Source: a virus. Taken from it: a stretch of 26,283 bases of DNA. Positions 3,664-21,532 of the stretch are shown piece after piece (within the stretch, counting starts at the first letter, position 1; every line of letters begins with the position of its first letter). The stretch lies in the IMG/VR virus record IMGVR_UViG_3300042874_000085, positions 1 through 26,283 of that record; one strand, given 5' to 3'. The notes beneath the pieces were generated by a model. It made no database searches and had not been told where the DNA came from. It was given only the letters and a program-made list of their open reading frames with translations. Both the position numbers and the translations under genes were made by a program.

Positions 3664-3702
3664 AGTATACCAATTTGCATACCAATATGCAAGTGCTATA
3701 CT
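3664..3702. promoter_or_regulatory. divergent overlapping promoters with a shared inverted-repeat operator
   Basis: A perfect inverted repeat TTGCATA-N4-TATGCAA lies at 3675-3692. Its left arm holds the plus-strand -35 (TTTGCA, 3674-3679), 17 bp before an extended -10 TGCTATACT (box 3697-3702). Its right arm, read on the minus strand, is the -35 TTGCAT (3687-3692), 17 bp before TGGTATACT (box 3664-3669). Plus-strand transcription should start at about 3709, the A of the primase ATG, giving a leaderless mRNA. Minus-strand transcription should start a few bases before 3654. A protein dimer on the repeat would cover both -35 elements; the adjacent HTH protein is the likely ligand. Confidence 0.72.
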
Positions 3703-3708
3703 ACCAGC

Positions 3709-5831: not shown

Positions 5832-6312
5832 TGATAAAAGAAATAACTCGTGTTGGTACGCCGTACTGCACACTTAGTTCTATGATGTTTTTTTGTGGAT
5901 ATGATTTTTTAATATCGTTTTTTTGTTCTGGGGATAACCGTGATATTGAACCACGGTTTTTTTCCATTATGTTATTCATGCTTTCAGTATGAGTACCAAG
6001 CCAAAGGTGTTCAGGATTTATACAAGCTGGATTATCACAGGTGTGGCACACAAATTTAGTTCTATCGTTAATAAAACCATTTTTTAATTCAAAAGATAAT
6101 CTATGAGAACCTACCACCTTTCCTTTGAAGGAGATTCTTCCATAACCATTTTTAGACAATAGTCCAGTATAAATAAAACAACCATTTTCTGTCTTTTCAT
6201 ACCTACCTGAAAAGACAGAATTCCATGAGGGTCGTGATGCTTTTATTGCGGTACTTATCTTGCTTATTACCTCTTTTCGAGACTCATTTTTTTTCCACCA
6301 TTTCTTTTTCAT
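5797..6312 (-). CDS. free-standing HNH homing endonuclease
   Basis: This is a 171-residue HNH protein. It has a very basic N-terminus (MKKKWWKKN), a CFIYTG/GYGRISFKGK beta region, then GSHRLSFEL, VCHTCDNPACINPEHLWLG (residues 88-106) and THTESMNN, the typical HNH_3 core with a zinc-like pair of CxxC/CxN motifs. The C-terminus carries a likely DNA-recognition helix (NIIELSVQYGVPTRVISF). It is encoded against its neighbours and converges on the helicase gene with a 35-nt overlap, as expected for a homing gene inserted between modules. It has its own sigma70-like promoter. It is unrelated in detail to the nested HNH in the intein, which has a NUMOD4 domain. Confidence 0.85.
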   Translation of the reverse strand: MKKKWWKKNESRKEVISKISTAIKASRPSWNSVFSGRYEKTENGCFIYTGLLSKNGYGRISFKGKVVGSHRLSFELKNGFINDRTKFVCHTCDNPACINPEHLWLGTHTESMNNIMEKNRGSISRLSPEQKNDIKKSYPQKNIIELSVQYGVPTRVISFIIKTAHLRLPLP

Positions 6313-6392
6313 TTTGTATCGGTATTAATTTATATGGATATATTTTATACTGGAAAAAAAAATAGTCAATGTTTTTAATACCGATACAAAAT
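6311..6392. repeat. 18-bp perfect inverted repeat around the HNH promoter
   Basis: Left arm 6311-6328 and right arm 6375-6392 are perfect reverse complements (core GTATCGGTATTAA), 46 bp apart. The left arm begins within the start codon of the HNH gene; the right arm lies upstream of its promoter. The interval holds the -35 and -10 elements. It may be an operator or a cruciform, or the remnant of a duplicated target made when the endonuclease gene arrived. Confidence 0.75.
6342..6369 (-). promoter_or_regulatory. sigma70-type promoter for the HNH gene
   Basis: On the minus strand a TTGACT -35 (6364-6369) is followed by a 16-bp T-rich spacer and a TAAAAT -10 (6342-6347), placing the start of transcription near 6335, about 25 nt before the HNH ATG. 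Confidence 0.55.
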
Positions 6393-6405
6393 TGGAGACG
6401 ATTGA

Positions 6406-6447
6406 AAAATGCAAAAAACGCCTAAGATTAAGCGTTTTTTGCATTTT
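6406..6447. terminator. bidirectional intrinsic terminator
   Basis: A perfect 16-bp inverted repeat (6406-6421 and 6432-6447) with a 10-nt loop. The stem has a GCG core flanked by six A on one side and six T on the other, so it can end transcripts in either direction. It lies between the leftward HNH gene and the rightward packaging genes. Confidence 0.72.
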
Positions 6448-6455
6448 GAGTAAAG

Positions 6456-6494
6456 GGTTACCATACCCCCATATGGGGATATGGTAATCTTTTT
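6456..6494 (+). terminator. rho-independent terminator, rightward
   Basis: A hairpin at 6456-6489 has an ATAT loop, a four-pair C/G upper stem, one C-A mismatch and a ten-pair lower stem, followed by TTTTT (6490-6494). It would stop rightward readthrough from the primase/helicase genes before the virion operon. Confidence 0.7.
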
Positions 6495-6912: not shown

Positions 6913-7078
6913 AAAAGAGATGTTGGTAGATGATAAAAAGGCTGAGGAGTTTAAGGTAGAACTTCGTGCGTTAGAGGATAAATATGAGTTTCGTTTGGAG
7001 CCAATATTAAATTATTCGGTGCGTGGTATCGTACCCACAATCAATGTAGTCAGGGTGGAGAAACCAAAAGTAGAATAA
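6899..7078 (+). CDS. small hypothetical protein, 59 aa
   Basis: Starting at ATG 6899 inside the end of the previous gene, this frame encodes 59 residues beginning MSEIKKEML. The first half is acidic helix; the second half (NYSVRGIVPTINVVRVEK) is beta-like. The 14-nt overlap with the gene before it and 18-nt gap to the small terminase support real coding. I recognise no family. Confidence 0.6.
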   Translation: MSEIKKEMLVDDKKAEEFKVELRALEDKYEFRLEPILNYSVRGIVPTINVVRVEKPKVE

Positions 7079-7081
7079 GTG

Positions 7082-7090
7082 TGGTATCAT
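7082..7090 (+). promoter_or_regulatory. extended -10 element before small terminase, leaderless start
   Basis: TGGTATCAT, with its box at 7085-7090, sits exactly 6 nt before ATG 7097. A start of transcription at the usual distance would fall on the A of the start codon. Confidence 0.5.
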
Positions 7091-7096
7091 TGACGA

Positions 7097-7516
7097 ATGA
7101 AACAACAAGGGAAATCATATACTCCAGAAGAACGAACTCAAATTATAGAAAGTTTACGACCATATCTTGAAATGGGATTTAGTAGGCGAAAATCTTGTGC
7201 CTTCTTAGGTTTTGATGACACAACATTATCTAAGTGGGTTCAGGATGATGCTGGTCTTTCGATAAAACTAACTTCGTGGGAAAATGTGAATACAGCTCTA
7301 GCATTGGCTAATATACACCAAGCACTTAAAAATGAGTCAATACTGGTAAAAGAAAAAGGAGAAGTAAAACTTGATAATAGTTGGAAATTGGTATCTAAAC
7401 TTGAAGATGGTTACAAAGATAAATTAGATGTTACAAGTAATGACAAGACAATGACAGTGACTGGTTTTACTTTTGTTAAGAATGGCGACAATAACACCGC
7501 AGATAATTCCGACTAA
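7097..7516 (+). CDS. terS: terminase small subunit
   Basis: This is a 139-residue protein with an N-terminal helix-turn-helix-like region (residues 9-50, with FSRRKSCAFLGFDDTTLSKW), a helical middle (residues 60-85) and a flexible C-terminus. Size, HTH and position immediately before the large terminase fit a small terminase subunit, which recognises the packaging site and assembles as a ring. It overlaps the large subunit gene by 35 nt. Identification rests on context plus the HTH, since small terminases are divergent. Confidence 0.7.
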   Translation: MKQQGKSYTPEERTQIIESLRPYLEMGFSRRKSCAFLGFDDTTLSKWVQDDAGLSIKLTSWENVNTALALANIHQALKNESILVKEKGEVKLDNSWKLVSKLEDGYKDKLDVTSNDKTMTVTGFTFVKNGDNNTADNSD

Positions 7517-9029
7517 GAAGCAAGAGCTTGCTTGGGACAAGTGGATGGATGACACCACTCGTTTTATTGTCTTTGGTGGTGGTGCAGGTGGTGGTAAATC
7601 ATGGGTTGGGTGCGAGATGATACTCACTGGATGTTATTTTTATGCTGGTTCTAGTTGGTTTTTGGCTCGTAATGAATTGAAGCGATTAATGAATACTACG
7701 TATAAGACGTTCAAAAAAGTTTGTACGCATCACAAAATACCAGAGTCTGATTGGAGATTAGACGGGCAGTACAACATAATTTATTTTAATAATGGTTCAG
7801 AAATTCATTTACTCGATGTTGCATATAAACCAACTGATGATATGTACGAACGATTTGGTTCGTATGAATTTACAGGTGGTTTTGGCGATGAAATAAATGA
7901 GTGGGAGTTTGATGCCTATGATGTATTGAAGTCTAGAATTGGGCGTAATAATGTTTTCTCTACTTCGGAGAAAAAGATGATTTCTCCACCAGCAGATTTT
8001 CAAGATTTTCCAGAAAAATATTCTGAGTTAGTAACAATATATCCGAAGTTTTTTGGGGCGTGTAACCCAGCAAAAAACTGGGTATTTCAAGAATTTTACA
8101 AGCCTTGGAAAAATGGTACGTTATCATCAGACAAAGCTTTTATACAATCACTGTATTCTGACAATCCATATACTGCTCAAACGTATGGTGAACAACTTGC
8201 ATCAATTAAGAACGTAATTAATCGGCAACGTCTTATGGAAGGTAAGTGGGAGTACACTGATGATATTTCTGCGCTCGTTACATATGGCGCCTTGGAAGAT
8301 ATGTTTTCAAATACTGAGGCTCTTTCGGGAATAAAATATGCTGTATTTGATATAGCTAGAGGTGGTGCGGATAATGCCATTGCAAATCTCTTTGATGGCT
8401 GGCACTCATATAAACGAATTAAGTTACAGAAGACAGACGATCCGATGGAATTACGTCAAGAAATTCGGGAGATACTTTCTATTGAAAACATTGCGTATAA
8501 AAATGCTATCTATGACGATAATGGGGTTGGGTGGGCTATGTCTGGTGGAGATTTGAAAGGAATGAGACAGTTTATAGGTTCTCGTTCCCCACTACCAACA
8601 AGGGAACAGTTTAAAATACGAGTACGAAATAAAATTGACCCTAATGGATTAAACCCAAATTTTACAAACTTGAAGTCGCAAGCGGGATTTTTTCTAGCAG
8701 ATAAAATAAATAATCACGAAATATCATCAGCAATAGCTGATGATAGTGAAATAATTATTGAAGACCTTACAGCATTGTTAATTCAGGAAGATATTGAACG
8801 TGAAGGAAAACTTAAACTTAGAACGAAGGAGAATGTTAAAGATGATTTAGGTCGCTCTCCAGATTATGGTGATACGTACATTATGCGTGCATGGTTTGAT
8901 TTGTATATTAATGCACAAATGACAGATCCAAAAGAAGAGGAGCGTATATCAGGTTACTATGACATGCTTGCTCTGAAGGCTAATATGAAAATAACCAAGA
9001 AAGAAAAACCTAAAGCAGGCTTGCGATAA
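7482..9029 (+). CDS. terL: terminase large subunit (packaging ATPase and nuclease)
   Basis: A 515-residue protein from ATG 7482; a TTG at 7473 is less likely. Walker A GGAGGGKS is at residues 33-40, and Walker B with catalytic acid is GGFGDEINEW (D136, E137). The nuclease half has VFDIARGGADNA, IYDDNGVGW and DYGDTYIMRAWF, supplying the acidic residues of the RNase H-like fold. It powers DNA translocation into the prohead and cuts the concatemer. The gene follows the small subunit with a 35-nt overlap and precedes the portal, the standard order. Length is normal and no truncation or intein is seen here. Confidence 0.93.
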   Translation: MATITPQIIPTKKQELAWDKWMDDTTRFIVFGGGAGGGKSWVGCEMILTGCYFYAGSSWFLARNELKRLMNTTYKTFKKVCTHHKIPESDWRLDGQYNIIYFNNGSEIHLLDVAYKPTDDMYERFGSYEFTGGFGDEINEWEFDAYDVLKSRIGRNNVFSTSEKKMISPPADFQDFPEKYSELVTIYPKFFGACNPAKNWVFQEFYKPWKNGTLSSDKAFIQSLYSDNPYTAQTYGEQLASIKNVINRQRLMEGKWEYTDDISALVTYGALEDMFSNTEALSGIKYAVFDIARGGADNAIANLFDGWHSYKRIKLQKTDDPMELRQEIREILSIENIAYKNAIYDDNGVGWAMSGGDLKGMRQFIGSRSPLPTREQFKIRVRNKIDPNGLNPNFTNLKSQAGFFLADKINNHEISSAIADDSEIIIEDLTALLIQEDIEREGKLKLRTKENVKDDLGRSPDYGDTYIMRAWFDLYINAQMTDPKEEERISGYYDMLALKANMKITKKEKPKAGLR

Positions 9030-9034
9030 AAACA

Positions 9035-9043
9035 TGGTATAAT
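9035..9043 (+). promoter_or_regulatory. extended -10 promoter before the portal gene
   Basis: TGGTATAAT, a consensus extended -10, with its box at 9038-9043, lies 10 nt before the portal ATG. The mRNA would have a leader of only a few bases. Confidence 0.55.
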
Positions 9044-9053
9044 ATATTCAAAT

Positions 9054-10892
9054 ATGAAAATCTACGATTACGTTGAAGCACAACGCTCATTCTATGAGAC
9101 ACGTACAATCCCATTGCAGTCAGGAGATGACTACAGTCAATACCAACTTATTAAGGCAACTAACTATGCACGCCGTTCTCGGTATATTGATAATAATGCT
9201 TATGATGACATTATAGGTGAATATCCTTATGACAATATCTCAGAGTATCGTATTCGTCTTGAGGCACGCTCTACAGACCGTGATATTAAGCACATGGAGG
9301 TTGAACCAATGGATGCATCTGATGAAGCTCGTGTATCTGCTATGGTCGCTACAAAAGCACTACAAAAAAAGATGCGTGACATGCGATTCGGTAAAACTCT
9401 TAATGAGTATTCTGTAGTACGACCTCGATATGGTGCTGTTCTTTTTAAGCGAGTAGAAACTGAGAAGGGTAAAGATGTATATATCGTGCCATGGGAAAAT
9501 GTCATTACGGATATGACAGATATTCTTACTTCACCTATTGTCGAAAAACATTTTTACACTCCCGGACAACTTAAAAAACAAACGACATGGAAGAATGTCA
9601 ATGAAGCAATTACGACTGCACGTGAACAAAAAAAATCAAAAGACATTGGAGGTAAATCAAATGCAGATGCAGACACGGTTGGAACATACATCACTGTGTT
9701 TGAGGTTACTGGCGAGATAGAAAAAGCAACACTCCTTGAGGCACAAGGTGAGAAATGGACTGATGATGACATGAATGAGTTTGTGTTGGCTCGTATTATT
9801 TATGCACCACTCGGTAAAGATAAATCAGGTAAAAATACCGGTATTATATTCCGTGTCGATGAAATTACCGAAAAGGAATATCCGTATAAACTTGATGTGC
9901 GTCATCCTGTTATTGGTAGGGCATTTGGTGAAGGTATTCCTGAGGAAGTTTCTGAACATCAGAGGTGGCATAATTTTTATAAAACAGAAGAAGCTCGTGC
10001 TGTTGCCATTGGTGGTAAAATACTATTTTATACTGACGATGGTAACGTAGTAGATAGTATTTACGCAGATGGAATTGATCACGGTACAGTGCTTCAAGTT
10101 GGGGAAGGTAAAACATTTCAACAGCTTAATACTATTCCTAGTACCATACCTGTATATCAGAACATCACAGAGCAATGGGACTCTTCAGCAGATAAAAAGA
10201 CTAATTCATTCGAGGCGGTTATGGGTGAGGAGTCTAAGAGTGGGACTCCGTTCCGTGCGCAGTATTTACAAAATATAGCAGGAACATCACAGTTTGAACA
10301 AGAACTTGAAGATATGGGACTCTTTCTTGAAGAGCTTATTGGTGATTGGATTTTAGAAGATGCTCTTAATGAGGCGGCGAGTGCTGGTGAAATTGATGAC
10401 ACCTTTACTAAAGAAGAACTTGACCTTATCGACCGCACCATTATTAACAAAGAGATGATTAAGCGTGGTGCTGAGTCACTTTTGAATGGGCAACTTGTTA
10501 CACCAGAGATACAGGCGGTAATGGAAAAAGACATTACTACTGATTTGAAGCGAAAAGGTGCAAGACGTAAGATTACAGACATTCAGGAATTTATCCGTAA
10601 TGCAGGCAAAAAGGTTATTGTACGCACCACTGATGAACAACGATCTAAGGCGGTACTCTTTGAGTCATATAGTAATGCCATTAACCTTGCCAAGGGTATT
10701 GATAGAACAGACCCAGTACAACTTGCGCTTCGTGATAAGGTGCTCGATATGATTGGAGTGTCCGAACAGGAACTTATGTTGTATGTAAATCAAGCAATGC
10801 AAGCGGCAGAACAAATGGCACCGCAAGGCGGACAAGTAAAGATGCAAACAGAGCAAATGAACCAAGAGCAGAGCGTAGCACCAGTAATATAA
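9054..10892 (+). CDS. portal protein
   Basis: This is a 612-residue protein located directly after the large terminase. It is rich in charged helices with an N-terminal region (ARRSRYIDN, YDNISEYRIR), a central beta region (VYIVPWENVITD) and long C-terminal helices ending in a Met/Gln-rich tail. The segment FEAVMGEESKSGTPFRAQYLQ and the following helices suit the portal stem/wing. Portal proteins form the dodecameric DNA channel at the capsid vertex. Identification depends on size and synteny more than on a single motif. Confidence 0.78.
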   Translation: MKIYDYVEAQRSFYETRTIPLQSGDDYSQYQLIKATNYARRSRYIDNNAYDDIIGEYPYDNISEYRIRLEARSTDRDIKHMEVEPMDASDEARVSAMVATKALQKKMRDMRFGKTLNEYSVVRPRYGAVLFKRVETEKGKDVYIVPWENVITDMTDILTSPIVEKHFYTPGQLKKQTTWKNVNEAITTAREQKKSKDIGGKSNADADTVGTYITVFEVTGEIEKATLLEAQGEKWTDDDMNEFVLARIIYAPLGKDKSGKNTGIIFRVDEITEKEYPYKLDVRHPVIGRAFGEGIPEEVSEHQRWHNFYKTEEARAVAIGGKILFYTDDGNVVDSIYADGIDHGTVLQVGEGKTFQQLNTIPSTIPVYQNITEQWDSSADKKTNSFEAVMGEESKSGTPFRAQYLQNIAGTSQFEQELEDMGLFLEELIGDWILEDALNEAASAGEIDDTFTKEELDLIDRTIINKEMIKRGAESLLNGQLVTPEIQAVMEKDITTDLKRKGARRKITDIQEFIRNAGKKVIVRTTDEQRSKAVLFESYSNAINLAKGIDRTDPVQLALRDKVLDMIGVSEQELMLYVNQAMQAAEQMAPQGGQVKMQTEQMNQEQSVAPVI

Positions 10893-10893
10893 T

Positions 10894-11175
10894 ATGTGGT
10901 CAGAGCGAGAAATAACTATAGCCAAACAATTACAAGAGCCATCAACATTGGCTTTTTTGCGTAAGATATTCATAGCCACTATCACCAGTAATGATGAAGA
11001 GATTTCTAAAAATATTGTTGCCCTTGATGATGCTGAATATGGGCGCTTGATGAAAGTTGTGTACCTTGCAAAGAAAGAAAATAAATCGAGACTAAATTTG
11101 ATTGCGGAAATTTCTAAAAGGAAGCCTATTGTTGCTGGTGAAGAAAAAAAAGTTTCTACTCTTGCACCACGATGA
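10894..11175 (+). CDS. small helical protein, function unknown
   Basis: This 93-residue protein starts one base after the portal stop (TAA-T-ATG). It is mostly helical and mildly basic, with FLRKIFIATI and RLMKVVYLAKKE segments and no known motif. It sits between the portal and scaffold genes, so it may be a head-assembly accessory protein; this is inferred from position only. Confidence 0.6.
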   Translation: MWSEREITIAKQLQEPSTLAFLRKIFIATITSNDEEISKNIVALDDAEYGRLMKVVYLAKKENKSRLNLIAEISKRKPIVAGEEKKVSTLAPR

Positions 11176-11177
11176 TG

Positions 11178-11186
11178 TGGTATAAT
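11178..11186 (+). promoter_or_regulatory. extended -10 promoter for the scaffold/capsid genes
   Basis: TGGTATAAT with its box at 11181-11186, directly after the stop at 11175. Unlike the other copies it is followed by a leader of roughly 85 nt before the next ATG. Confidence 0.6.
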
Positions 11187-11278
11187 ATAGATAAGAGAAG
11201 AGCGCTCTCAACCTCTAACTGTGTAGGTTAAGTTTTTATATATAAAAGGTCTCACTAATCCTTAAGTGATATAGAGCC
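11187..11278 (+). other. structured 5' leader of the scaffold mRNA
   Basis: The leader contains the palindrome AGAGCGCTCT (11199-11208), a weak hairpin AACCT/AGGTT (11210-11214 and 11225-11229) followed by AAGTTTTT, a 14-bp A/T palindrome, and a TCACT/AGTGA hairpin. The GCGCTCTCA at 11202-11210 recurs in the leader of the adaptor gene (13210-13218). It may stabilise the message or attenuate transcription. Confidence 0.4.
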
Positions 11279-11854
11279 ATGTTTGTAGAAAACAATGAAG
11301 AAGAGATAGTTGATTCAGCTGAGACTACTATCACAGATGATGTATCAGATAACGATACCGAAAATGCAAGCAATACAGAAGATGAAGTTGCGAAGACTAC
11401 AGAAAGTAGCAAGCAACAGTCAGATAAAACTGGCGAAACTACAGAGCAAAGACGTGCTCGTATCAAGCGACAATACGAACGAGAGTTTGGTAAGCAAGAT
11501 AGTAAAGGTAGTGAAGAAGGTAGTAAAGAAAAAGAAGTAGGAAGTGATGAGCGTTACCAACGACTTGAACTCAAGACAGAAGGTATTACTTCAAAAAAGG
11601 CACAAGATGTAGTGTTGGAATACGCAAAATGGAAAGGAATTGACCCAGTAGATGCTCTTAAATCTCCAATTGTAAAAGCGGAGATTGCAGACCTTGAAAA
11701 GAAAACATCAGCTCCACCACCGTCAAAGCGTACTACAGCAGGTGCCACAGATTCGTTTGAGTATTGGGTTTCACAAGCTAAAAAAGGAAACTTCCCTCGT
11801 GGCGATAAAGCTATGATGGATAAACTCAAGAAAGCACGTATCTTTACATCATAA
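11279..11854 (+). CDS. scaffolding protein
   Basis: This is a 191-residue protein with a strongly acidic, Thr/Ser/Glu-rich N-terminal half, a central basic QRRARIKRQYEREF segment, and a helical C-terminal part that ends with basic residues (MMDKLKKARIF). Unequal charge distribution, Pro/Ser linker (APPPSKRTTAG) and a basic C-terminus placed directly before the major capsid gene are typical of phage scaffolds, which bind coat subunits with their C-terminus and leave or are cleaved before maturation. No protease gene is seen next to it. Confidence 0.68.
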   Translation: MFVENNEEEIVDSAETTITDDVSDNDTENASNTEDEVAKTTESSKQQSDKTGETTEQRRARIKRQYEREFGKQDSKGSEEGSKEKEVGSDERYQRLELKTEGITSKKAQDVVLEYAKWKGIDPVDALKSPIVKAEIADLEKKTSAPPPSKRTTAGATDSFEYWVSQAKKGNFPRGDKAMMDKLKKARIFTS

Positions 11855-11881
11855 TTTAACCCTTAAAATTAAAAATAAATT

Positions 11882-13132
11882 ATGTCAAACGTATTTGCCG
11901 AAGATGTACAGAAGCAATTCTATATGGAAGGACTTCAGGACAATCTTCGAGATTCAGTCCCAATGCTTCTTGTTTCAGAAGTTGAAACAGAGAACGCAGA
12001 ATATATTGTTAATCGCTATGGCGCAGATGTAAGCGCACAATCTACAAAGAACTCTTTGTATAGACGTGCAACAGGCTTTACATACAGCCGAGATAAAAAG
12101 TCAATCGATGAGATTGCAACCGTAACTGATGTAATTCTTTACCAAGAACTTATGCGGGAAGGTTTTGATATAGTTGCTGATCGTCAAGATAAACACGCTT
12201 TTGCACTTCGCAAAGCTGTACACCGACACTCTGTTTCAACAGGAGTATCAAGCGCCGGTTCACTCCTTGATAATGAAGTATTGGGTGGTTCTGCTTCAGC
12301 AGGAACTCCAATCACTTTATCAAGTTCAAACCCAGATGATGTAGCCGCTACTATCGTTCAAATTCTTCAAGAAGAAAACGCATACGGTGAAAACACACCA
12401 TTTGTAATGATGACTCCAAAGCAAGCTAAGTTCTTTAACCTCTTTTCACAAGGTGCTGGGTTCTCAGTAGCTGATAAAGCACTTGTTAATAGCATCTTCA
12501 CTGTTGCTGGGGGTACTCGTGTAATTCGTGGTGCGCAAGGATTTGCAGGGCTTGATGTTATCGTGACCAATGAAATGCCACGTACATCAGTTCTTACTCT
12601 TTCTGCCCCACTTGTTGCAGCCGAGACAATCACCATAAACGGTGTTGTACTTACCGCAGCAGCAACTCCAGCTACAGCAGGAGCTGTAGATGTTGAGGCA
12701 ACCACCGAAGCTCAAATTGATACGCTCGTGGCAGCTATCAATAACAGCTCGTACTACTTAGCTGGTGTTGGTGATGCTAATGATTACTTTGAAGTATCAC
12801 AAGCTAACCGTACTATCTGGGAAGCAGCCGGCGTTCGCGCTCGTAAGCTCACAACAACCACTCTTGAAGTAACTTCGTTTACAACTCTAACTGTTGCAGA
12901 AACAAGTACAGTGGGTGCATGGGGAACCGTAAAGGAACACATGCTTGCTGGTGCTTACAATGCTGTAACTATTGCTCTTCCTTCTAAGGGTATGCGTTCA
13001 GATGAAAAGACACTTTCAGCAGCCGTTGGTGGAACAGGAACACACGGTTTTGAACTTACAACTCTTCAGATGCACGATGCAGTTGTCTGGTCAAATAACG
13101 CCGGAAAGTTGGTCGATGTCCTTTGTGTATAA
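11882..13132 (+). CDS. major capsid protein, HK97-type fold with inserted domain
   Basis: This is a 416-residue protein with the usual HK97-fold pattern: an N-terminal helix/arm, VSEVETENAEYIVNRYG, a spine-helix region around residues 100-120 (DRQDKHAFALRKAVHR), and a P/A-domain core (FVMMTPKQAKFF, GFAGLDVIVTNEMP). Residues about 236-340 form a Thr/Ala-rich beta segment (ETITINGVVLTA, WEAAGVRARKLT) between the core and the C-terminal strand, probably an inserted surface domain. The C-terminus (LTTLQMHDAVVWSNNAGKLVDVL) returns to the capsid core. It follows the scaffold gene by 27 A/T-rich nt. It would be the most abundant protein in the particle. Confidence 0.82.
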   Translation: MSNVFAEDVQKQFYMEGLQDNLRDSVPMLLVSEVETENAEYIVNRYGADVSAQSTKNSLYRRATGFTYSRDKKSIDEIATVTDVILYQELMREGFDIVADRQDKHAFALRKAVHRHSVSTGVSSAGSLLDNEVLGGSASAGTPITLSSSNPDDVAATIVQILQEENAYGENTPFVMMTPKQAKFFNLFSQGAGFSVADKALVNSIFTVAGGTRVIRGAQGFAGLDVIVTNEMPRTSVLTLSAPLVAAETITINGVVLTAAATPATAGAVDVEATTEAQIDTLVAAINNSSYYLAGVGDANDYFEVSQANRTIWEAAGVRARKLTTTTLEVTSFTTLTVAETSTVGAWGTVKEHMLAGAYNAVTIALPSKGMRSDEKTLSAAVGGTGTHGFELTTLQMHDAVVWSNNAGKLVDVLCV

Positions 13133-13176
13133 GGGTTGTACATACACAAGATTGCTTTACACAAATTAAAGTAGAA

Positions 13177-13235
13177 CTCAATCCCTTTAGGGGGTTGAGT
13201 AGGGGACTGGCGCTCTCAGTCTCCTACTCAACCCC
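13177..13235 (+). promoter_or_regulatory. mutually exclusive hairpins in the capsid-adaptor gap
   Basis: Three segments can pair. A nine-base element (13177-13185) pairs with 13191-13199 through a TTTAG loop, with one G-U wobble. The same second element, extended to 13191-13209, pairs along 19 positions with 13217-13235 (18 Watson-Crick pairs and one G-U) around a 7-nt loop. No T-run follows, so it is not a simple terminator. It could act as an mRNA stability or processing element, or as an attenuator-like switch between highly expressed capsid and lower expressed adaptor. Confidence 0.75.
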
Positions 13236-13247
13236 TCAAAAATAACT

Positions 13248-13946
13248 ATGAATGAAAATACATTACAAACCATATACGATGCCGTTAAAGACCTCACTGG
13301 ACAGACTAATTTAGCTGTAGATAAGTTTATTCGAGGTGTAAACTTCGCAGTAGATGACTACACACGACAAAGATTGCTTGCAAGTCCTCGCTTTACACCA
13401 GACAGCACTCTATATGGGAATATTTCACGGGTAACGGTGTCTTTAGGTTCAGGAGTAGAGAAACTATCACTTCCTACAGAACTCATCACAATAAGGCAAA
13501 TAGAAGTATTAAACGATGATGTATACCAGCTAGTAGAGCCGACTGATATACAAGACCATTCTGATGAACCACTAAGTACCAAATACTCAGGTTCTGGTAT
13601 TCCCGAAGTGTACGACATCGAAAGTAATCATATTTATTTCTACCCAGTACCCTCTGGATCAATGACTGTACGAATGACATATCAAAGAGCGCATCCACGC
13701 TTTACCGCATCAGATTTGTCGCTTAGTTTGGGGGTTCTTTCGATAGATGAGGAGTATCTTGTACTCTATACAGCAGATTATGTAATGCTTGGTTCATCTG
13801 ATAGTGCGGTTGTAGCAGTTTCGCAACGACTTGCACAGAAACGAGTAGATATTCGTACTATGTTTGGCAATTTAGACCAAGATAGAGCGAAAAAAATGCG
13901 AGTAACACAATCAAACGCATTTAAGTTTAATAGTTTTAAAAGATAA
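13248..13946 (+). CDS. head-tail adaptor / connector protein
   Basis: This is a 232-residue protein. The N-terminal helices (MNENTLQTIYDAVKDLTG) are followed by a beta domain with LPTELITIRQIEVLNDD, and IYFYPVPSGSMTVRMTYQR (residues about 126-144), then C-terminal helices (LVLYTADYVML, SQRLAQKRVD). This is the pattern of podovirus adaptors such as the T7 gp11 and P22 gp4 families, which bind beneath the portal ring and start tail assembly. Its place after the major capsid gene agrees. The gene is preceded by the large hairpin; no Shine-Dalgarno sequence is seen. Confidence 0.72.
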   Translation: MNENTLQTIYDAVKDLTGQTNLAVDKFIRGVNFAVDDYTRQRLLASPRFTPDSTLYGNISRVTVSLGSGVEKLSLPTELITIRQIEVLNDDVYQLVEPTDIQDHSDEPLSTKYSGSGIPEVYDIESNHIYFYPVPSGSMTVRMTYQRAHPRFTASDLSLSLGVLSIDEEYLVLYTADYVMLGSSDSAVVAVSQRLAQKRVDIRTMFGNLDQDRAKKMRVTQSNAFKFNSFKR

Positions 13947-13947
13947 T

Positions 13948-14361
13948 ATGAGTACACTACACTTAAAATCATTGGAATTAGCACTTGACGCTGTTTTGGC
14001 ATTGGGAACATTAAAATTATATCCAATGGCAACAACCTTTACACCTGATGCTGGTACAGATAGTTATTTCTCTGATATTTCAGCTGAAGTAGCAAGTGGA
14101 GCTTCTGCCATTACTCTTACTGGAGTAGTTACAACGATTGATACAGTGAATAATCGTGTTGAACTTGATACTGATAACGCTACGACAGGTTCAATAACGA
14201 CAACTACAGATAAATATTCACTTGTTGTTCACACTGGAGTAGATTCTACGTCACCAGTACTCGCTACGATTGATATTACAGAAGGTACTGTATCAACAAT
14301 ATCTGGTACGATTACATTTACAGTAAACTCAGAAGGACATTTCGCTCTTAAAGCAATTTAA
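13948..14361 (+). CDS. small beta-rich virion protein, function unknown
   Basis: This is a 137-residue protein. The N-terminal 30 residues are helical, and the rest is Thr/Ser-rich beta strand with short repeats (ATTGSITTTTDKY, EGTVSTISGTITF). No catalytic motif. The start follows the adaptor stop by one base. It is likely a minor head or decoration protein by composition and neighbours; no specific family is recognised. Confidence 0.55.
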   Translation: MSTLHLKSLELALDAVLALGTLKLYPMATTFTPDAGTDSYFSDISAEVASGASAITLTGVVTTIDTVNNRVELDTDNATTGSITTTTDKYSLVVHTGVDSTSPVLATIDITEGTVSTISGTITFTVNSEGHFALKAI

Positions 14362-14364
14362 TAT

Positions 14365-15255
14365 ATGGCGTTAGTAGTTGAAACAACAACAATAGCATCA
14401 GCTTCATCTTCAGATAATTTAACAATCGCTAAACCAAGTGGAGTACAAGTTGGTGATTTGTTGTTAATTATTGCTAATGGAGCGACTTACTATCAGTTTC
14501 CTACCGTAGCTGGTTTTTCAGCTGCGGTTAATTACGGTTATAACGCCTCACTTGATGCAGCTTTAAGTATTTTATATCGTATTGCAGATGCTTCTGATGT
14601 TTCTGCTTCAAATTACACTATTGGATTAGCAGGAACTGATACATTAGGGGTGGCGGCTATGCTTCGTGTATCAGGGTGGAACTCTTCTATTAATCCTGTA
14701 TATACATTTGCTACTGCTGGTGATTATGCAGACCCAATTACAACGATTGGTGCTTCGGGATTAAATTTGAGTAGACCTTCTAATTCTTTATTGCTCATAG
14801 CAAATTGTTCTGTGTTAGATTTATCTAGTGCTACTTTTTCAGGATATTCAATTACATCATCTGGTTCTAATCCAACATGGACAGAAGTACAAGATGCACA
14901 AGTTTCTTCAGGTAGTTTACAGACAGCATTATCTGTTGCCTATGCCAATGATAGTAACCAATCTAATATAACTGCTTTTAATACAAATGTGTCATCTGAT
15001 TCTGGTGGTGGGGGAGATGCCATAGCTTCAATATTAGCTGTTATATTTGAACCAAAAAATGCAACCGCATCAAATGCATTGTTTCAAACATCTCCTGTTA
15101 CTTTTGCTACACTAACAAGTTCCACACAAAATGTATCAAATCAATTATTGGAACTTTCGCCTGAGATACCATCTCCAATAACAAAAGCAATATCTCCAAC
15201 CCAATGGCAAAATGAAACGGCTAATCCTACAACGTGGACTAATGAAACTATATGA
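14365..15255 (+). CDS. beta-sandwich virion structural protein
   Basis: This is a 296-residue protein, Ser/Thr/Ala-rich, almost all beta. The N-terminal SASSSDNLTIAKPSGVQVGDLLLIIAN segment is a pattern found often in phage and prophage surface proteins (strand, then P-x-G-hydrophobic-x-x-GDLLL). A repeated W-x-NET unit closes the protein (QWQNETANPTTWTNET). No enzymatic motif. It is probably a capsid or tail surface protein. It overlaps the next gene by ATGA. Confidence 0.6.
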   Translation: MALVVETTTIASASSSDNLTIAKPSGVQVGDLLLIIANGATYYQFPTVAGFSAAVNYGYNASLDAALSILYRIADASDVSASNYTIGLAGTDTLGVAAMLRVSGWNSSINPVYTFATAGDYADPITTIGASGLNLSRPSNSLLLIANCSVLDLSSATFSGYSITSSGSNPTWTEVQDAQVSSGSLQTALSVAYANDSNQSNITAFNTNVSSDSGGGGDAIASILAVIFEPKNATASNALFQTSPVTFATLTSSTQNVSNQLLELSPEIPSPITKAISPTQWQNETANPTTWTNETI

Positions 15256-15527
15256 GTCCCGAAGATAAGAAAAAAATAAATGACTTAGAACAGCGACTTG
15301 TTGCTATTGAGACCGTGCGTAATCTTTCGTTTATTAAAGAATTGGAACGACAACTTATTTCGGGTTCTCTTACAATTAAGACAGGAGCTAGTACAACAGG
15401 GACAACTATATCAGTACGAAATGCTGATGACACGGGGAGTGAAAGTGTTGCAGATAATTATACCGGTGGTGTGCTGACACTTTATAAAAATGGTGTAGCG
15501 ATTGGGCGTATAGGTTATTATTCGTAA
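15252..15527 (+). CDS. small coiled-coil plus beta virion protein
   Basis: This is a 91-residue protein. Residues 1-37 form a coiled-coil-like helix (KKKINDLEQRLVAIETV), followed by a beta half with GxxTTGTTISVRNADD. A short trimeric coiled coil followed by a beta tip is typical of small spikes or fibres. The start is in the ATGA overlap with the gene before it. Confidence 0.5.
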   Translation: MSPEDKKKINDLEQRLVAIETVRNLSFIKELERQLISGSLTIKTGASTTGTTISVRNADDTGSESVADNYTGGVLTLYKNGVAIGRIGYYS

Positions 15528-15540
15528 TATTATAAATAAT

Positions 15541-17271
15541 ATGCAAATACCAGATAATACAGGACAAGTACGACAAGTGAATATAGGTGATTACCTTGGG
15601 GAGATATGGGAGTCATTTAATCTTGATTTGAGTTCTATCCAAGGAAAGATAAAAACAAGTAAACAATTAAAAAAGATACTTACGGAGTCGCAAATGGGAG
15701 GAGCTAGTGCTGTTGTTGATTTGCTTATTTGGGACGGTGTATACATTCTCTGTACGGAGGATAGTATGTATACCTGTAGCGTTACAGATGACCCAACCAT
15801 TGCAACAAATTGGATTAACGATGGAGTTTCGTCTGATTTAGACTTGTCATCATCTGCGGTGGTATTTGATGACGGTACAAATAATCGTCTTCGTATTGCG
15901 CTTGATACAGATATTGCTGAATGGAATGGAGGAGGAACATACGACCCTGCGTGGTGGACAGGTGACCATTCGGGAATATCGCTTGTTTCCTTGTATCCTC
16001 ACATTATGACAGTGGTTCAGTCGCAAAAAGCAACACTTTATGTTACTGATAAGAATAGAGTCCAGTATTATGAAAAGGGTGCTACGAGTACACAGATAGT
16101 ACAGCTCGATAGCAATATGATTGCGTGTTGTCTTGCTTCAGGTCTTTCGGGTGCAATGTGGGTAGGGACATATAATGAGACATCTGGTGATGCGTATGTG
16201 TATGAAATATATACCAATGAAGAAGTTGATGGGACTCCTGTATACCGACAAGCCTATCCGATAGATGGGCGGGCGGTTCTGGCTATTTGGGTACAAGATA
16301 ATACTCCATTCATTCTAAATGAAAGAGGTATTGTGTATAAATTTAATGGTGTTGGGTTTTCTCCATTCGCACACTTCCCATTTCAATTTGACTCTCGACA
16401 CTTAGACAATGTTAGAGCAGGTTTGATACAAGCATCATCAACATCACGACCGGTGCATCCTCGTGGTGTAAAAGTTAAAGATGGATATACTTATATTTTA
16501 ATAAATACAATTTCCGAAGAAGACTCGTATGCAATAAATAATCGTTCTCATTCAGGTGTATGGGAACTCAATAACACAACAGGTTCTCTTTCACATAAAT
16601 TCGCAGCCGTTGATGGTGCAACTGATGTTGGTGCAGATGTATTAACTCGTTCCGGACCGCTACTCATTGTAGATAATGAGTATACGTTTGCACTCGCAGG
16701 TCTAGAAGTATCGGGTACTAATGATATTGGAATGTATAGTGTGACTAATACGTTTGGTACATCATATTTTGTAACACCAGAGGTACTTTCTTCGGTGGAG
16801 ACAGACTCATTCCTTAGAGTTATACATAAGGCATGTATCAAAAATGATGGTGTTATTTATACATTGTATCGCTCAACGAAACGAGACACGGCACGAGGAA
16901 CTATTAACTGGACAGGTACAACTACATTTACAACAACAGATGATTGGTCGGGAGTTGTTGAAGGTGATTTGGTGCGTATTTCACATGGGTATGGAGCAGG
17001 ACAGTGGGCGATGATAGAAAGTATTGAACATTCTTCAACTGTATACACAGTAACTGTATCAAAAGCTATTGGACTTAATACTGAGATAAGTTATGCATAT
17101 TCTGATAACTTCAATCTTGCTCAGGATACGTATGTTGCTAGTGACGGGGAGAGTAAGCGTGTTGGGTTAGATGTACAAGCGCCTTGGATACAAATTATGG
17201 TAATCCTTGAAGGAAATATTGAGTATCGTATGTTTGATTTAGTAGATACACCTAAATCCAATCGTAAGTAA
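15541..17271 (+). CDS. beta-propeller-like tail nozzle / structural protein
   Basis: This is a 576-residue protein made of repeated beta blades with W/Y-G-containing turns (LLIWDGVYILCTEDS, LAIWVQDNTPFILNE, VKDGYTYILIN, SGVWELN). Such proteins form the tail nozzle or hub in podoviruses (T7 gp12-like role). Residues about 452-525 contain a small module with the motif GYGAGQ, which is also present in the appendage protein at 24135. Position after the adaptor and before the ejection-type proteins agrees with a nozzle. The assignment is by architecture only. Confidence 0.55.
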   Translation: MQIPDNTGQVRQVNIGDYLGEIWESFNLDLSSIQGKIKTSKQLKKILTESQMGGASAVVDLLIWDGVYILCTEDSMYTCSVTDDPTIATNWINDGVSSDLDLSSSAVVFDDGTNNRLRIALDTDIAEWNGGGTYDPAWWTGDHSGISLVSLYPHIMTVVQSQKATLYVTDKNRVQYYEKGATSTQIVQLDSNMIACCLASGLSGAMWVGTYNETSGDAYVYEIYTNEEVDGTPVYRQAYPIDGRAVLAIWVQDNTPFILNERGIVYKFNGVGFSPFAHFPFQFDSRHLDNVRAGLIQASSTSRPVHPRGVKVKDGYTYILINTISEEDSYAINNRSHSGVWELNNTTGSLSHKFAAVDGATDVGADVLTRSGPLLIVDNEYTFALAGLEVSGTNDIGMYSVTNTFGTSYFVTPEVLSSVETDSFLRVIHKACIKNDGVIYTLYRSTKRDTARGTINWTGTTTFTTTDDWSGVVEGDLVRISHGYGAGQWAMIESIEHSSTVYTVTVSKAIGLNTEISYAYSDNFNLAQDTYVASDGESKRVGLDVQAPWIQIMVILEGNIEYRMFDLVDTPKSNRK

Positions 17272-17273
17272 TA

Positions 17274-17282
17274 TGTTATAAT
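17274..17282 (+). promoter_or_regulatory. extended -10 promoter before the first ejection-type protein
   Basis: TGTTATAAT with its box at 17277-17282, 9 nt before ATG 17292. Confidence 0.55.
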
Positions 17283-17291
17283 ATATAAAAT

Positions 17292-18836
17292 ATGCAATCT
17301 CAGAGAATACCCACAAGTGTAGGCATGGAGACAGTTGATGAAACTGTGGCACGAGCTAAAAAGCTTATTCAACCAACTGTTTCTGCTAATGAACTCGTAA
17401 ATCCACCAGCGAAGGTTACTCCACCTGTACCACAAATAAATACGAACACAGGCGCACGTACAGCAGGTCTTATTGATACTACAGCAACAAATACAGAGGG
17501 TTTTATTCAGGCGCAGAGTGAAGAAGCAACAAAAGCAAAAGAACTAGCTACACTTCTTGGTACTCAAACATTTGATGGCGCAGGTGAACGAGCTAATCTT
17601 ACAGAACAGTTTGGTGTGACGGCAGATACAAAACGTCTCAAAGACATTCAGACACAACTTGCGAAGCGTAATGTACAGACAGAATTACAAAAAGCACAAG
17701 CAACTGAGGGTGGAGCTGGTGCAATACAATCACAGAGAGCCTTAAATCTTGCAGATAAGCAGGCGGCTATTCGTGACGCGGGACTTGCGGCGGAAGCTAA
17801 TATACTTCAAGGAAATATTGAGACTGCTTCCACCTTGATTAACAATGCGATGAGTGACTATTATCAAGACCGTCAATTAGATAATCAGAATAAAATACAA
17901 CAACTTGAATACTTTAGTGGAATTGCTGATGATCAGACAGCGCAGTTATTGCAAAAGGAGCAGAGGAAATACGAGGAAGACCAGAAGAAGGTTGAGCGTG
18001 TATTAAATACGACAGACGCAGCAGTCGTGTCAGGTGTCGCTACTACAGACGAGATTAAACAGCTCTCAGACCCAACAATAACTGATGAAACACGTCTTCG
18101 TGTTGCACAATCTATCGTAGCACGTAAGGCTCAGCAAGAATTTAATCTTGATAGAGCAATTAAAGGACTTCAGTATGATAAACTTGGTTTAGAAATCCAG
18201 TCAGAGGAGGCCAAAATTCTTGCAGCACAAAAAGCTGAGGATGCTGGTATATTAACTCCAAATCAGGCAACTGTCGCAACAGACCTAAGAAAGGAGTTGA
18301 ATAATACTCAAGTCTATAAAAATGCGTTAGACCTTGAGGCACAAACCGGTGCGCTTTTAGCGTCTCTGGAACAGAAAAATGGAGTAAGTGATATTGCAGC
18401 AATAAATGCCTTCCAAAGACTTGCTGTTGACCCAGGTGTTGCGGTACGTGAAGGGGATGTTTCACTTCTACAGTCTGCCCAGTCATTTACTGACCAGAAG
18501 AAACTTCAAGGGCAAGGTTTGTGGGTTGGCGATAAACTTACTCCTGAAGCCAGAAAGCAAATGTCAGAGCTTGTACGAGGAGTATATAAATTTAGGGTTG
18601 ATTTAGTTGATGAAAATACATCACAAATACGCACAATGGCAAAAGAACAGGGTATTGATTACGGTAAATATGTCGGGAAAAGTTTTGCCTCTTTTGAGGA
18701 GATAATGTCTCGGGTGAACCAAGAAGATGCCATAATTTTTGGGATTGGCACAACAACAGATGAGTATTTGGATAATATATACACATCATTGTCATCTGAC
18801 CCTAATACAAATCCATTTGGAGTAAGTCTTGAATAA
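17292..18836 (+). CDS. large helical internal virion (ejection-type) protein
   Basis: This is a 514-residue protein, rich in Gln, Ala, Glu and Thr, mostly long helices. Residues about 110-240 and 300-345 are probable coiled coil (RLKDIQTQLAKRNVQTELQKA). The N-terminal 65 residues are Pro/Thr-rich and flexible. No enzymatic motif or transmembrane segment. In podoviruses, Ala/Gln-rich helical proteins following the nozzle gene are internal core or DNA-ejection proteins. It has its own extended -10 promoter and is followed by another protein of the same kind. Confidence 0.55.
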   Translation: MQSQRIPTSVGMETVDETVARAKKLIQPTVSANELVNPPAKVTPPVPQINTNTGARTAGLIDTTATNTEGFIQAQSEEATKAKELATLLGTQTFDGAGERANLTEQFGVTADTKRLKDIQTQLAKRNVQTELQKAQATEGGAGAIQSQRALNLADKQAAIRDAGLAAEANILQGNIETASTLINNAMSDYYQDRQLDNQNKIQQLEYFSGIADDQTAQLLQKEQRKYEEDQKKVERVLNTTDAAVVSGVATTDEIKQLSDPTITDETRLRVAQSIVARKAQQEFNLDRAIKGLQYDKLGLEIQSEEAKILAAQKAEDAGILTPNQATVATDLRKELNNTQVYKNALDLEAQTGALLASLEQKNGVSDIAAINAFQRLAVDPGVAVREGDVSLLQSAQSFTDQKKLQGQGLWVGDKLTPEARKQMSELVRGVYKFRVDLVDENTSQIRTMAKEQGIDYGKYVGKSFASFEEIMSRVNQEDAIIFGIGTTTDEYLDNIYTSLSSDPNTNPFGVSLE

Positions 18837-18837
18837 T

Positions 18838-20616
18838 ATGCAAATAACAAAAGAACAATTACAGAAAATCGTAGACAATGCACCCGTAGGAACGGACAAA
18901 GTTGGTGTAATAAAAGGACTTTATGACAGAGGCGTTTCTGTAAAGGGTGTTGACTCTTATGATGCTCAACAATTCTTTAGTCAGAAGGTATCTACTGACA
19001 TAAGTACACAACAGGCACAACGGGAAGAAATAAAAGCACAGATACTGGATCCAAATCTTGGAACGGGCTTCACACCATCGTTTGAATCAAAACCGGAAGA
19101 CACCCCAGTAGCGACAGTTGGTAAAACGATTGGTAACGTCCCTAAGTCTACCTTTATGCTTGGCAAGGATGTTCTTACTGCGGTTTTCAACCCAATTGAT
19201 ACAGCAAAAACAATATTCAGTTTAGTTAAAGGGCTTGGTGGTAAGATTGGAGAGAAAACACTTGAAAAAACAGAGGTGGGACAATTACTTTTGGAAAAGA
19301 TGAATGAATATCGTGTTTCTCAGGGTATTGAACCACTAAAACGAGATGAGTCTGGTAAATTACAGGCACAAACAACCGAAGAAATAGAGATGGTAAATAA
19401 GGTTGGCTCATATTTTAAGGATAGGTATGGCTCGTGGGACAATGTGAAGGAATCAACAGTAGAAGACCCAGTGGGTGTACTTTCTGATATAGCATCCATA
19501 GTATCAGGTGTAGGTTTTGCAGCTAAACAGACAGGTAATGTTTCAAAAATAAGTAGATTATCAGATGTAGGACAAACAATACAAAAAGTAGGGGATGCAA
19601 TTGAACCAATAGCAGCACTTGGAAAGGCTACCCAGAAGACTGGAAGTGTTATTTCTAATACGCTTCCCGGAAGGGTTGTGTCTGAGGCAGCACCAACACC
19701 GGGTAAGTTTGCTGAGGGTGAAATTGTAAAAGCACTAGACCTTACACAAGGGGATGTACGTAGAATAACAGAGAAGACAGGAAATGATGTAACGGATTTC
19801 ATTACACGAAATAACCTCTTGAAAGAGACACCAGAAGAAATTGCCTCAGCACTTAATAAGTTTAATGGGACTCAGTACAACCTTGTACGGAGTGAAGTTG
19901 CAAAAGTTAAGGACATTTATTCTAAAGCTCAAGTACCACGGGTTGCCGATGCGCTTAATGCCGTTAAACAGGTAGTTGATGTCCCAGGACTTGAAGACGC
20001 CGCTGTTGAAGTCAATAAATTACTTTCTCAAGACACTTATTCTCTTTCAGATATTCAAAGGGTTAAAGAAATCCTTGATGAGCGCACTAATATATTCTCA
20101 CGCTCGGGAGATGTTAAAGAAGCAGCAAAAGCGCAAGGACTTGCAAATGTGCGGGCAGACCTGCGCTCATTTGTAGAGACAGAAGTATCAAAAGCTACTA
20201 ATGGGGCAAGAGACATACAAAAGTTAAACAATGACGTAGCTACTTCGTGGGAACTTGCAGACGCAATAGTTTCACGGGAAACACGAGGACTCACTCGTCA
20301 ATATGGTTCGCTAACAAGTACACTCCTTGGAGGTGCAACTTTTGCTGGTACAGGGGACATATTTACAGCACTTGGAGTAGCAGGTATTAGTAAAATGGCA
20401 CAAACACCATCATTTAGAATTGCAATAGCTCGTTTGCTTAAATCAACACCGCTTGAAGACCTTGAAAAATGGTCTAAAGAAGTTGCAGAAGGTAATCTTT
20501 CTCCACAAACAAGACAAGCACTTTCTCAACTTATTATGTCAGCACGTGACAATGCTCAATTTATTGAGTCAGGCTCTCAAGTTATTGACGAGACTAGTGT
20601 AGAAACCACACCATAA
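18838..20616 (+). CDS. second large internal virion (ejection-type) protein
   Basis: This is a 592-residue protein from ATG 18838, one base after the previous stop. It is helical, with two weakly hydrophobic Gly/Ala segments (GVLSDIASIVSGVGFAA, residues about 214-230, and LLGGATFAGTGDIFTALGVAGI, about 500-521) that could insert into a membrane during genome ejection. The middle region (residues 285-480) is Asp/Glu/Lys-rich helices. No protease or transglycosylase motif was seen. Size and position suggest an internal ejection protein; a tape measure is less likely because no tail-tube gene is present. Confidence 0.55.
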   Translation: MQITKEQLQKIVDNAPVGTDKVGVIKGLYDRGVSVKGVDSYDAQQFFSQKVSTDISTQQAQREEIKAQILDPNLGTGFTPSFESKPEDTPVATVGKTIGNVPKSTFMLGKDVLTAVFNPIDTAKTIFSLVKGLGGKIGEKTLEKTEVGQLLLEKMNEYRVSQGIEPLKRDESGKLQAQTTEEIEMVNKVGSYFKDRYGSWDNVKESTVEDPVGVLSDIASIVSGVGFAAKQTGNVSKISRLSDVGQTIQKVGDAIEPIAALGKATQKTGSVISNTLPGRVVSEAAPTPGKFAEGEIVKALDLTQGDVRRITEKTGNDVTDFITRNNLLKETPEEIASALNKFNGTQYNLVRSEVAKVKDIYSKAQVPRVADALNAVKQVVDVPGLEDAAVEVNKLLSQDTYSLSDIQRVKEILDERTNIFSRSGDVKEAAKAQGLANVRADLRSFVETEVSKATNGARDIQKLNNDVATSWELADAIVSRETRGLTRQYGSLTSTLLGGATFAGTGDIFTALGVAGISKMAQTPSFRIAIARLLKSTPLEDLEKWSKEVAEGNLSPQTRQALSQLIMSARDNAQFIESGSQVIDETSVETTP

Positions 20617-20707
20617 ATATGACAAGTGGGATAACCCACCAACCAATAAATACTGTCACAAGAAGTAGACAGAATAGCGTGAAAGACACATTAAATATAG
20701 TCTTCAT
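20594..20707 (-). CDS. small hydrophobic membrane peptide, antisense
   Basis: On the minus strand an ATG at 20707 opens a 37-residue frame that is almost wholly hydrophobic (LFCLLLVTVFIGWWVIPLV) with a lone Lys at position 2. It forms one long, or two short, membrane segments. It lies 6 nt after the -10 box of a consensus promoter, giving the same leaderless layout as other genes here. Its stop overlaps the end of the 592-residue gene by 23 nt. Could be a regulator of lysis or superinfection exclusion; no family recognised. Small size makes chance possible. Confidence 0.42.
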   Translation of the reverse strand: MKTIFNVSFTLFCLLLVTVFIGWWVIPLVIFMVWFLH

Positions 20708-20713
20708 ACAAAA

Positions 20714-20742
20714 AACATACGCCCTTAGATTAAACGTGTCAA
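20714..20742 (-). promoter_or_regulatory. consensus sigma70-type promoter facing left
   Basis: TTGACA on the minus strand (20737-20742), a 17-bp spacer, and TATGTT (20714-20719), followed after 6 nt by ATG 20707. Confidence 0.5.
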
Positions 20743-20752
20743 TACCCTTCCT

Positions 20753-21511: not shown

Positions 21512-21514
21512 TCG

Positions 21515-21523
21515 TGGTATAAT
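21515..21523 (+). promoter_or_regulatory. extended -10 promoter before the fibre gene
   Basis: TGGTATAAT with its box at 21518-21523, 9 nt before ATG 21533. Confidence 0.55.
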
Positions 21524-21532
21524 TATTGAAAT

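Follow-up and report, generated by a model that had tools for sequence, protein, structure and literature searches.

Tailed phages need hundreds of capsid subunits and about a dozen adaptors. In ribosome-mediated (trp-type) or riboswitch attenuators, three RNA strands engage in mutually exclusive pairings, the order of which is set by transcription. The element described herein, composed of three strands (A, B, and C) located between a capsid gene and an adaptor gene, resembles these attenuators in all three respects, but differs from them in that neither of its hairpins is a U-run terminator in the window and that any ligand, leader peptide, or sensor would be hypothetical. Several other systems are also comparable. 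In the available parts of the cited reports, T7 genes 11 and 12 are expressed only by readthrough of Tphi (PMC5592923); in Clostridium operons, stem-loops behind selected genes set the transcript stability and operon stoichiometry (SRPS; PMC8219983); the programmed decay of E. coli operons connects protective RNA structure with operon stoichiometry (PMC5927463, PMC4423207); in the phages 7-11 and GAP52, intergenic sigma-gene hairpins with UUCG-type loops are tied to processing or transcript stability (PMC8948821); and in SU10, a capsid slippage stem-loop is a proposed frameshift signal inside the capsid gene (PMC4281155).

The A-B-C element shares with Tphi the junction between the capsid gene and the tail tube or adaptor gene, at which Tphi lowers the downstream expression. 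Tphi, which is annotated directly behind gene 10, has a U-run and ends T7 RNA polymerase transcripts, whereas the A-B-C element lacks a U-run and carries a second, competing hairpin. Like SRPS, it is a stable intergenic stem-loop, and judging from the protein type the gene ahead of it would be the more abundantly expressed one, but in contrast to SRPS and the decay of E. coli operons it is phage-borne and its processing is a proposal. A competing upstream strand for the basal stem is absent from the available parts of the SRPS and programmed-decay descriptions (PMC8219983, PMC5927463), and the hairpins of 7-11 and GAP52 are short, belong to another gene, and have no alternative partner in the available part of their description (PMC8948821). 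As in SU10, which gave its name to the adaptor family, structured RNA is found at the capsid gene; unlike the SU10 slippage stem-loop, however, the present element lies past the stop codon, and the frame closes 13 codons on. A search of the open-access literature, with subscription journals mostly uncovered, found no title on such a capsid-adaptor RNA element. What is new is a third, competing strand added to a putative control stem between the two cistrons, at the step from capsid to adaptor.

The window, i.e., the whole stretch of DNA analysed here, corresponds to positions 1-26,283 (26,283 bases) of the IMG/VR record IMGVR_UViG_3300042874_000085. The gene order near the element was terminase large subunit, probable portal, a small ORF, probable scaffold, capsid, adaptor, and presumed tail ORFs (Table 1). 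The single match of the portal ORF was to a hypothetical protein at the portal position in MW202577.1 (23.6% identity, E 1e-13), and PHROG and Pfam searches with the scaffold ORF returned no match. While the capsid ORF itself likewise had no match in PHROG, Pfam, or PDB, it was labeled as such because the profile of its near clade aligned with the capsids of the L017 group (hhalign probability 95.9, E 6.4e-9), seven of seven members of which matched PHROG 267 'major head protein'. A predicted model of its fold was unusable (mean pLDDT 42.6).

Table 1. Features of the window around the A-B-C element.
Feature	Position	Strand	Basis or remark
Terminase large subunit	7473-9029		PHROG 2
Probable portal	9054-10892		Named by position; one weak match
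Promoter-like extended -10 TGGTATAAT	11178..11186	+	Sequence; precedes the scaffold and capsid genes
Probable scaffold ORF, 191 aa	11279..11854	+	Position ahead of the capsid gene
Major capsid protein ORF, 416 aa	11882..13132	+	Homology in two steps
Segment A, alternative partner of basal B	13176..13186	+	11-bp A:B hairpin; covariation
Segment B, 5' arm of the main hairpin; basal half also pairs with A	13190..13210	+	Folding, relatives, covariation
Apical 7-nt loop GCGCUCU	13210..13216	+	G-U closing pair 13210-13216 in RNAfold
Segment C, 3' arm of the main hairpin	13216..13236	+	Folding; ends 11 nt ahead of the adaptor start codon
SU10-type adaptor ORF, 232 aa	13248..13946	+	Pfam PF24175 E 7.3e-15; PHROG 2941 virion structural protein E 5.2e-6

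The capsid stop and the adaptor start are separated by 115 bases. A motif similar or identical to TGGTATAAT also precedes the scaffold ORF in L001, L002, L003, L005, L010, and L012-L016, and none was seen ahead of the scaffold ORF in L011. Given this promoter-like motif before the scaffold-capsid genes, and since no TATAAT was seen ahead of the adaptor start in the window sequence, the downstream genes would depend on readthrough. The earlier note had regarded the capsid gene as very highly and the adaptor gene as lower expressed, levels that we infer from the types of the two proteins. Among 19 chosen gene starts of the window, none had more than four of six matches to AGGAGG within 25 nt upstream. 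In front of the starts at 9054, 17292, and 21533 there is a TATAAT ending 9-10 nt short of the start codon, suggestive of mRNAs with short leaders.

In the RNAfold prediction, segments B and C paired over their entire length to form 21 uninterrupted base pairs. The pairing proposed in the earlier note (13191-13209 with 13217-13235, 19 positions with one G-U) was thus recovered, with one outer and one inner G-U pair added. The alternative upstream pairing, which had been placed at 13177-13185, was also present and proved to be slightly longer, spanning 11 bp between 13176-13186 and 13190-13200 with a loop of 3, so that A occupies 11 of the 21 nt of B. As had been claimed, B:C was much more stable than A:B (-39.2 vs -15.9 kcal/mol), and the sequence after the B:C stem (CAAAAATAACT) contained no U-run. 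The folded 101-nt stretch showed an MFE of -39.7 kcal/mol (z -6.7), none of 200 dinucleotide shuffles being equally stable, and B:C was the strongest 70-nt fold in the window (-39.4 kcal/mol; the 5243 positions evaluated averaged -10.4 with an sd of 4.3). The A segment of the window paired with B better than dinucleotide-shuffled A did (p 0.0025), an advantage that was less marked when the whole 30-nt upstream stretch was shuffled instead (p 0.036). The element was not among the 11 terminator-like sites found in a terminator scan of 7000-26283. A search of the window and 11 relatives against Rfam (4227 families) gave no match at the curated score, and a permissive search gave 26 matches, all under the curated score and mostly to miRNA-precursor hairpins.

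Folding of successively longer RNA prefixes, which is no kinetic simulation, completed A:B once the 3' end of the RNA reached 13200 and left it intact while the apical part of B:C formed; its displacement started at 13229 and was finished at 13235. This order, together with the energies, suggested that A:B should form first and B:C last. The resting state was B:C, which lies approximately 9 kcal/mol below the combination of A:B with the apical half of B:C (-39.2 vs -30.0 kcal/mol), and hence A:B may be a mere folding intermediate. Two further candidate functions were rejected. Masking of the start codon by pairing was one of them: the adaptor start region was equally unpaired in the intact RNA (0.65) and after a simulated cut (0.66), and release of the start codon thus forms no part of the evidence, although steric effects may play a part. 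The other was readthrough or frameshifting at the capsid stop: beyond the stop, the reading frame of the capsid is closed again within 0-21 codons in the 15 loci (13 codons in the window) and shows no consistent extension.

Searches with the capsid protein yielded 44 loci with a usable capsid end, including the window, after L052, L054, and L055 had been left out for having only a partial capsid gene. These comprise a near clade of 12 loci (the window, L001-L005, and L011-L016; 41-99% capsid identity to the window) and a second, distant clade of 32 loci (L017, L019-L024, L028-L051, and L056). An A-B-C element was found just after the capsid stop in all 12 near-clade loci, the A:B helix of L003 and L016 containing a mismatch or bulge, and, by reading, in six of the 32 second-clade loci, of which L017, L019, L020, and L023 were called by fold and scan and L028 and L051 by eye and covariance model. 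Merging of identical or near-identical elements reduced these 18 of 44 loci to 15 distinct ones. No A-B-C was seen behind the capsid gene in the remaining 26 second-clade loci, 21 of which have other or no strong structures at this place. The expectation of the earlier note that related phages keep the hairpin therefore held for the near clade, in which both helices also covary. Its description of the hairpins as attenuator-like was likewise borne out in part. Both of the competing hairpins were confirmed, they come back at this junction in relatives, and their two helices covary, whereas reading of the tails by eye showed a U-run behind the main stem in none of the 15 distinct loci; since an attenuator needs one terminator state, a classic terminator-attenuator is not supported in the window.

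A scan for A-B-C arrangements across the 44 sources (465 kb, both strands) detected, at strict cut-offs chosen after seeing the hit list (B:C ≤ -30 and A:B ≤ -12 kcal/mol), 17 sites on the plus strand, 16 of them post-capsid, and two on the minus strand; loose cut-offs (-20 and -10) gave 36 plus-strand sites, 16 of them post-capsid, and 21 on the minus strand. The control phages T7, phi10:1, 11b, and SU10 (156 kb) gave zero plus-strand sites and one minus-strand site at the strict setting and six on each strand at the loose one. As the scan missed L028 and L051, it may miss further A-B-C loci. A covariance model built on six sequences (R1) found L012-L016, L028, and L051, none of which was in the training set (E 2.5e-6 to 1.4e-4), and gave no match up to E 1 in the four control phages. 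At E ≤ 1 it missed L017, L019, L020, and L023, whose elements also lie behind the capsid gene, and R1 thus does not tie the elements of the two groups to a common descent through these four. Weaker matches were obtained in L056 (5215-5280; 0.0044), L033 (0.018, 0.3), L030 (0.084, 0.57), and L034/L035 (0.017, likewise post-capsid), as were antisense echoes of true sites.

Covariation was evaluated on an alignment of six sequences (the window, L001-L004, and L011). Pairing in the A:B helix stood at 96.7%, and 3 of its 10 pairs had changed in both partners; 8 of 500 shuffles attained this double-change count and 1 of 500 the covariation score. In the B:C helix, pairing stood at 95.8% and both partners had changed in 8 of the 20 pairs, which none of 500 shuffles reached. 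Sliding of the partners by one column lowered the pairing to 51-58%. One position has changed on all three strands at once in two lineages, with both competing pairs preserved: the window has A-U-A there, L004 has G-C-G, and L011 has C-G-C. At the same position L003 has lost A:B and kept B:C, and at the next one L004 has kept A:B (A-U) and lost B:C. Among 11 lineages, pairing of each A with its own B summed to -144.4 kcal/mol vs -105.1 (sd 8.4) for swapped partners, the own-partner sum being reached in 0 of 50,000 permutations, with the reservations that the own B ranked first for A in only 4 of the 11 and that the A-B loop length was picked per locus, which introduces some bias toward matched pairs. 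When loci were taken singly, A:B attained p ≤ 0.05 in 10 of 15 upon shuffling of A and in 5 of 15 upon shuffling of the whole upstream stretch, a test that is empty for L003 and nearly so for L028 owing to the little upstream sequence to shuffle. Part of the covariation could stem from template switching that corrects palindromes. The B:C folds contained 52 G-U pairs on the plus strand vs 13 on the minus strand, and the plus-strand fold was the more stable in 13 of the 15 loci, the exceptions being L019 and L020. Both biases favor selection on plus-strand RNA over a DNA palindrome, and the G-U usage lends support to an RNA role on the plus strand. The comparison shows that B has been kept able to pair with both the upstream A and the downstream C, as plus-strand RNA. 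The evolutionary conservation of both folds points to a control element between an abundant protein and scarcer ones.

On these grounds, we prefer, tentatively, a reading that takes A-B-C for a cis-acting RNA, conserved at the border of the capsid and adaptor genes, which would divide the transcript into a plentiful scaffold-capsid portion and a less plentiful tail portion with no U-run terminator. During transcription, A:B would form first, and C would then displace A to give the far more stable B:C, which may act as a 3'-end processing site and/or as a barrier to 3'-to-5' decay; such a processing or decay-barrier stem is the most likely role of the U-less element on the present analysis. In its simplest form, the stem would generate or shield the 3' end of the capsid mRNA, similar to what has been described for SRPS operons (PMC8219983) and for the programmed decay of E. 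coli operons (PMC5927463). An RNase III site needs about two turns of double-stranded RNA, and the main stems of the 15 distinct loci, some of which have bulges, internal loops, or extra outer pairs, reach this length with 21-32 bp. B:C may be cut by an RNase III-type endonuclease that acts on double strands. Because A pairs with the basal half of B, loss of C or of the apical half could allow A:B to re-form on the capsid side as the new terminal hairpin of the capsid mRNA, and simulated upstream products ending at 13198-13202 folded into a terminal A:B hairpin. The conserved A strand calls for a further role beyond that of a 3'-end stem, and re-formation of A:B is the candidate that we favor for it. 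The net effect would be a step-down in expression from the capsid to the tail genes, the job of a leaky terminator in T7. The idea that the hairpins set the mRNA ratio by processing or stalling, raised in the earlier note, would fit both the position of the element and the terminators found there in other phages.

An extended version of this reading, which we regard as doubtful, takes A-B-C for a new RNA class that makes its own replacement 3' cap: B:C would be cut, C would leave, and A would take the basal half of B, whereby the capsid mRNA would be freed and protected and the tail part would decay, and the shared apical loop motif may recruit the cutting factor or join the two mRNA ends. A mirror element 5' of the scaffold gene in the L017 group had been considered as support for such re-capping and was rejected, since it failed the shuffle test in six of six loci (p 0.08 in L021 and 0.50-0.83 in L017, L019, L020, L022, and L023); in L019, L020, L022, and L023 the segment lies inside a larger fold, and the test window missed it there. 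The apparent mirror consists of a long hairpin and a following GCACTG. A very stable hairpin with CACTG/CAGTG repeats was observed upstream of the scaffold gene at 7873-7928 of L017, with counterparts in L019-L023.

The folding order could also serve a ribosome-sensing switch, in which a ribosome at the capsid stop covers A so that B:C forms at once, and A:B otherwise forms first and delays B:C, coupling the downstream expression to capsid translation. The A helix starts roughly 6-16 nt past the capsid stop in 13 of the 15 distinct loci, near the edge of a terminating ribosome, and the formation and displacement of A:B in the prefix foldings agree with such a switch. In the window and L001, however, A starts about 43 nt past the stop, outside the footprint. 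B:C is moreover the final structure in both cases, and folding of the RNA leaves the start region of the adaptor open. According to the available part of one report (PMC2817708), neighboring structures in an mRNA interchange quickly in vivo, which would weaken a purely kinetic switch. We consider this explanation rather unlikely.

Terminators at the same junction in other phages bring a further explanation into view, namely that B:C is a U-less terminator or pause site that halts the RNA polymerase of the host or phage or slows it down, with A:B delaying B:C and thereby setting the readthrough. L021 and L022 have a U-run terminator behind the capsid gene and then a TATAAT, followed in L022 by an ORF (10234-10941) taken for the adaptor; T7 has Tphi at this junction, and SU10 has an annotated terminator nearby, behind an Ig-like gene that comes after the capsid gene. 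L033 (6167-6257), L036 (6168-6259), and L056 (7175-7270) carry a post-capsid antiterminator/terminator pair, in which GAGGTAAGT pairs with ACTTACCTC, and the latter overlaps the stem of a terminator with six or seven U behind it, an architecture different from A-B-C. Against these precedents stands the tail behind the stem, which is devoid of a U-run in every distinct A-B-C locus including the window, and termination or pausing by the element itself is thus judged unlikely. The relatives seem to set the capsid-to-adaptor ratio at one and the same junction with different RNA devices, some using a U-run terminator, others an antiterminator/terminator pair, and others a three-strand switch that lacks a U-run. 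Such diverse devices at one junction provide a natural set for testing how a control point is rebuilt, and the three-strand switch could be used as a compact module with which to adjust gene ratios.

The apical loop raises the question of a protein-bound operator, with a CGCUC loop core on a long stem being bound by a phage or host protein, or paired with the 5' leader, for feedback on the capsid or adaptor. This core occupies the apex in 9 of the 15 distinct loci (the window, L001-L005, L017, L019, L020, and L023), but is absent from L012-L016, L028, and L051, and sits in the 3' arm in L011. The scaffold leader of the window (11199-11205, AGAGCGC) exactly complements the 7-nt apical loop, and the L002 leader has a 9-nt loop complement with a matching change, whereas the match in L003 and L004/L005 extends over just 6 nt (AGAGCG with CGCUCU) and no matching stretch was seen in the L017 leader. 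The 5'-3' loop pairing might be followed as a lead, and the operator as an explanation of the element is quite improbable. Although long near-perfect palindromes can act as DNA, the window stem is near perfect, and the minus-strand fold is the more stable in L019 and L020, a palindrome acting in replication, packaging, or as a cruciform with no RNA role is very improbable in view of the fourfold excess of G-U pairs in the plus-strand folds, the greater plus-strand stability in most loci, and the tie of the element to the capsid stop.

As for the host, one capsid relative (55%) was found on a contig of 39 kb that had been assigned to the bin of a Ca. Shapirobacteria MAG, and an A3 profile matched 2 of 379 genomes of the Ca. 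Shapirobacteria phylum, one of which was that same MAG; this link is too weak to name a host for the window phage. Elsewhere in the window, three long inverted repeats were clustered in the gap between divergent ORFs (6311-6493). The ORF at 3595-4626 encodes a primase-like protein in which Toprim (121-204) lies ahead of a DnaG-type zinc ribbon (290-342), the reverse of the usual primase order. On the minus strand, 2804-3370 encodes a Mom-family protein (PF25680, E 2.7e-23) adjoining a helicase ORF, which suggests DNA modification.

Two further RNA motifs were observed among the relatives. One lies behind the capsid gene, where GGTAAG is followed by a small hairpin and then, past CYTC or CCTC, by another hairpin that ends in GACA; it was detected by pattern in L017, L019, L020, L023, L028, L032, L033, L036, and L056 and by eye in L051, and had no Rfam match in L017, L028, L032, L033, L036, L051, and L056. 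The other comprises long hairpins with a conserved CAACGCTT, located approximately 780-970 nt upstream of the capsid start in L029, L033, L036, L037, L041, L046, and L056. CAACGCTT is in the loop in some of them, in L029 and L036 it pairs with a copy lying farther upstream, and a terminator-like stem with six U comes after the CAACGCTT hairpin in L029, L033, and L037.
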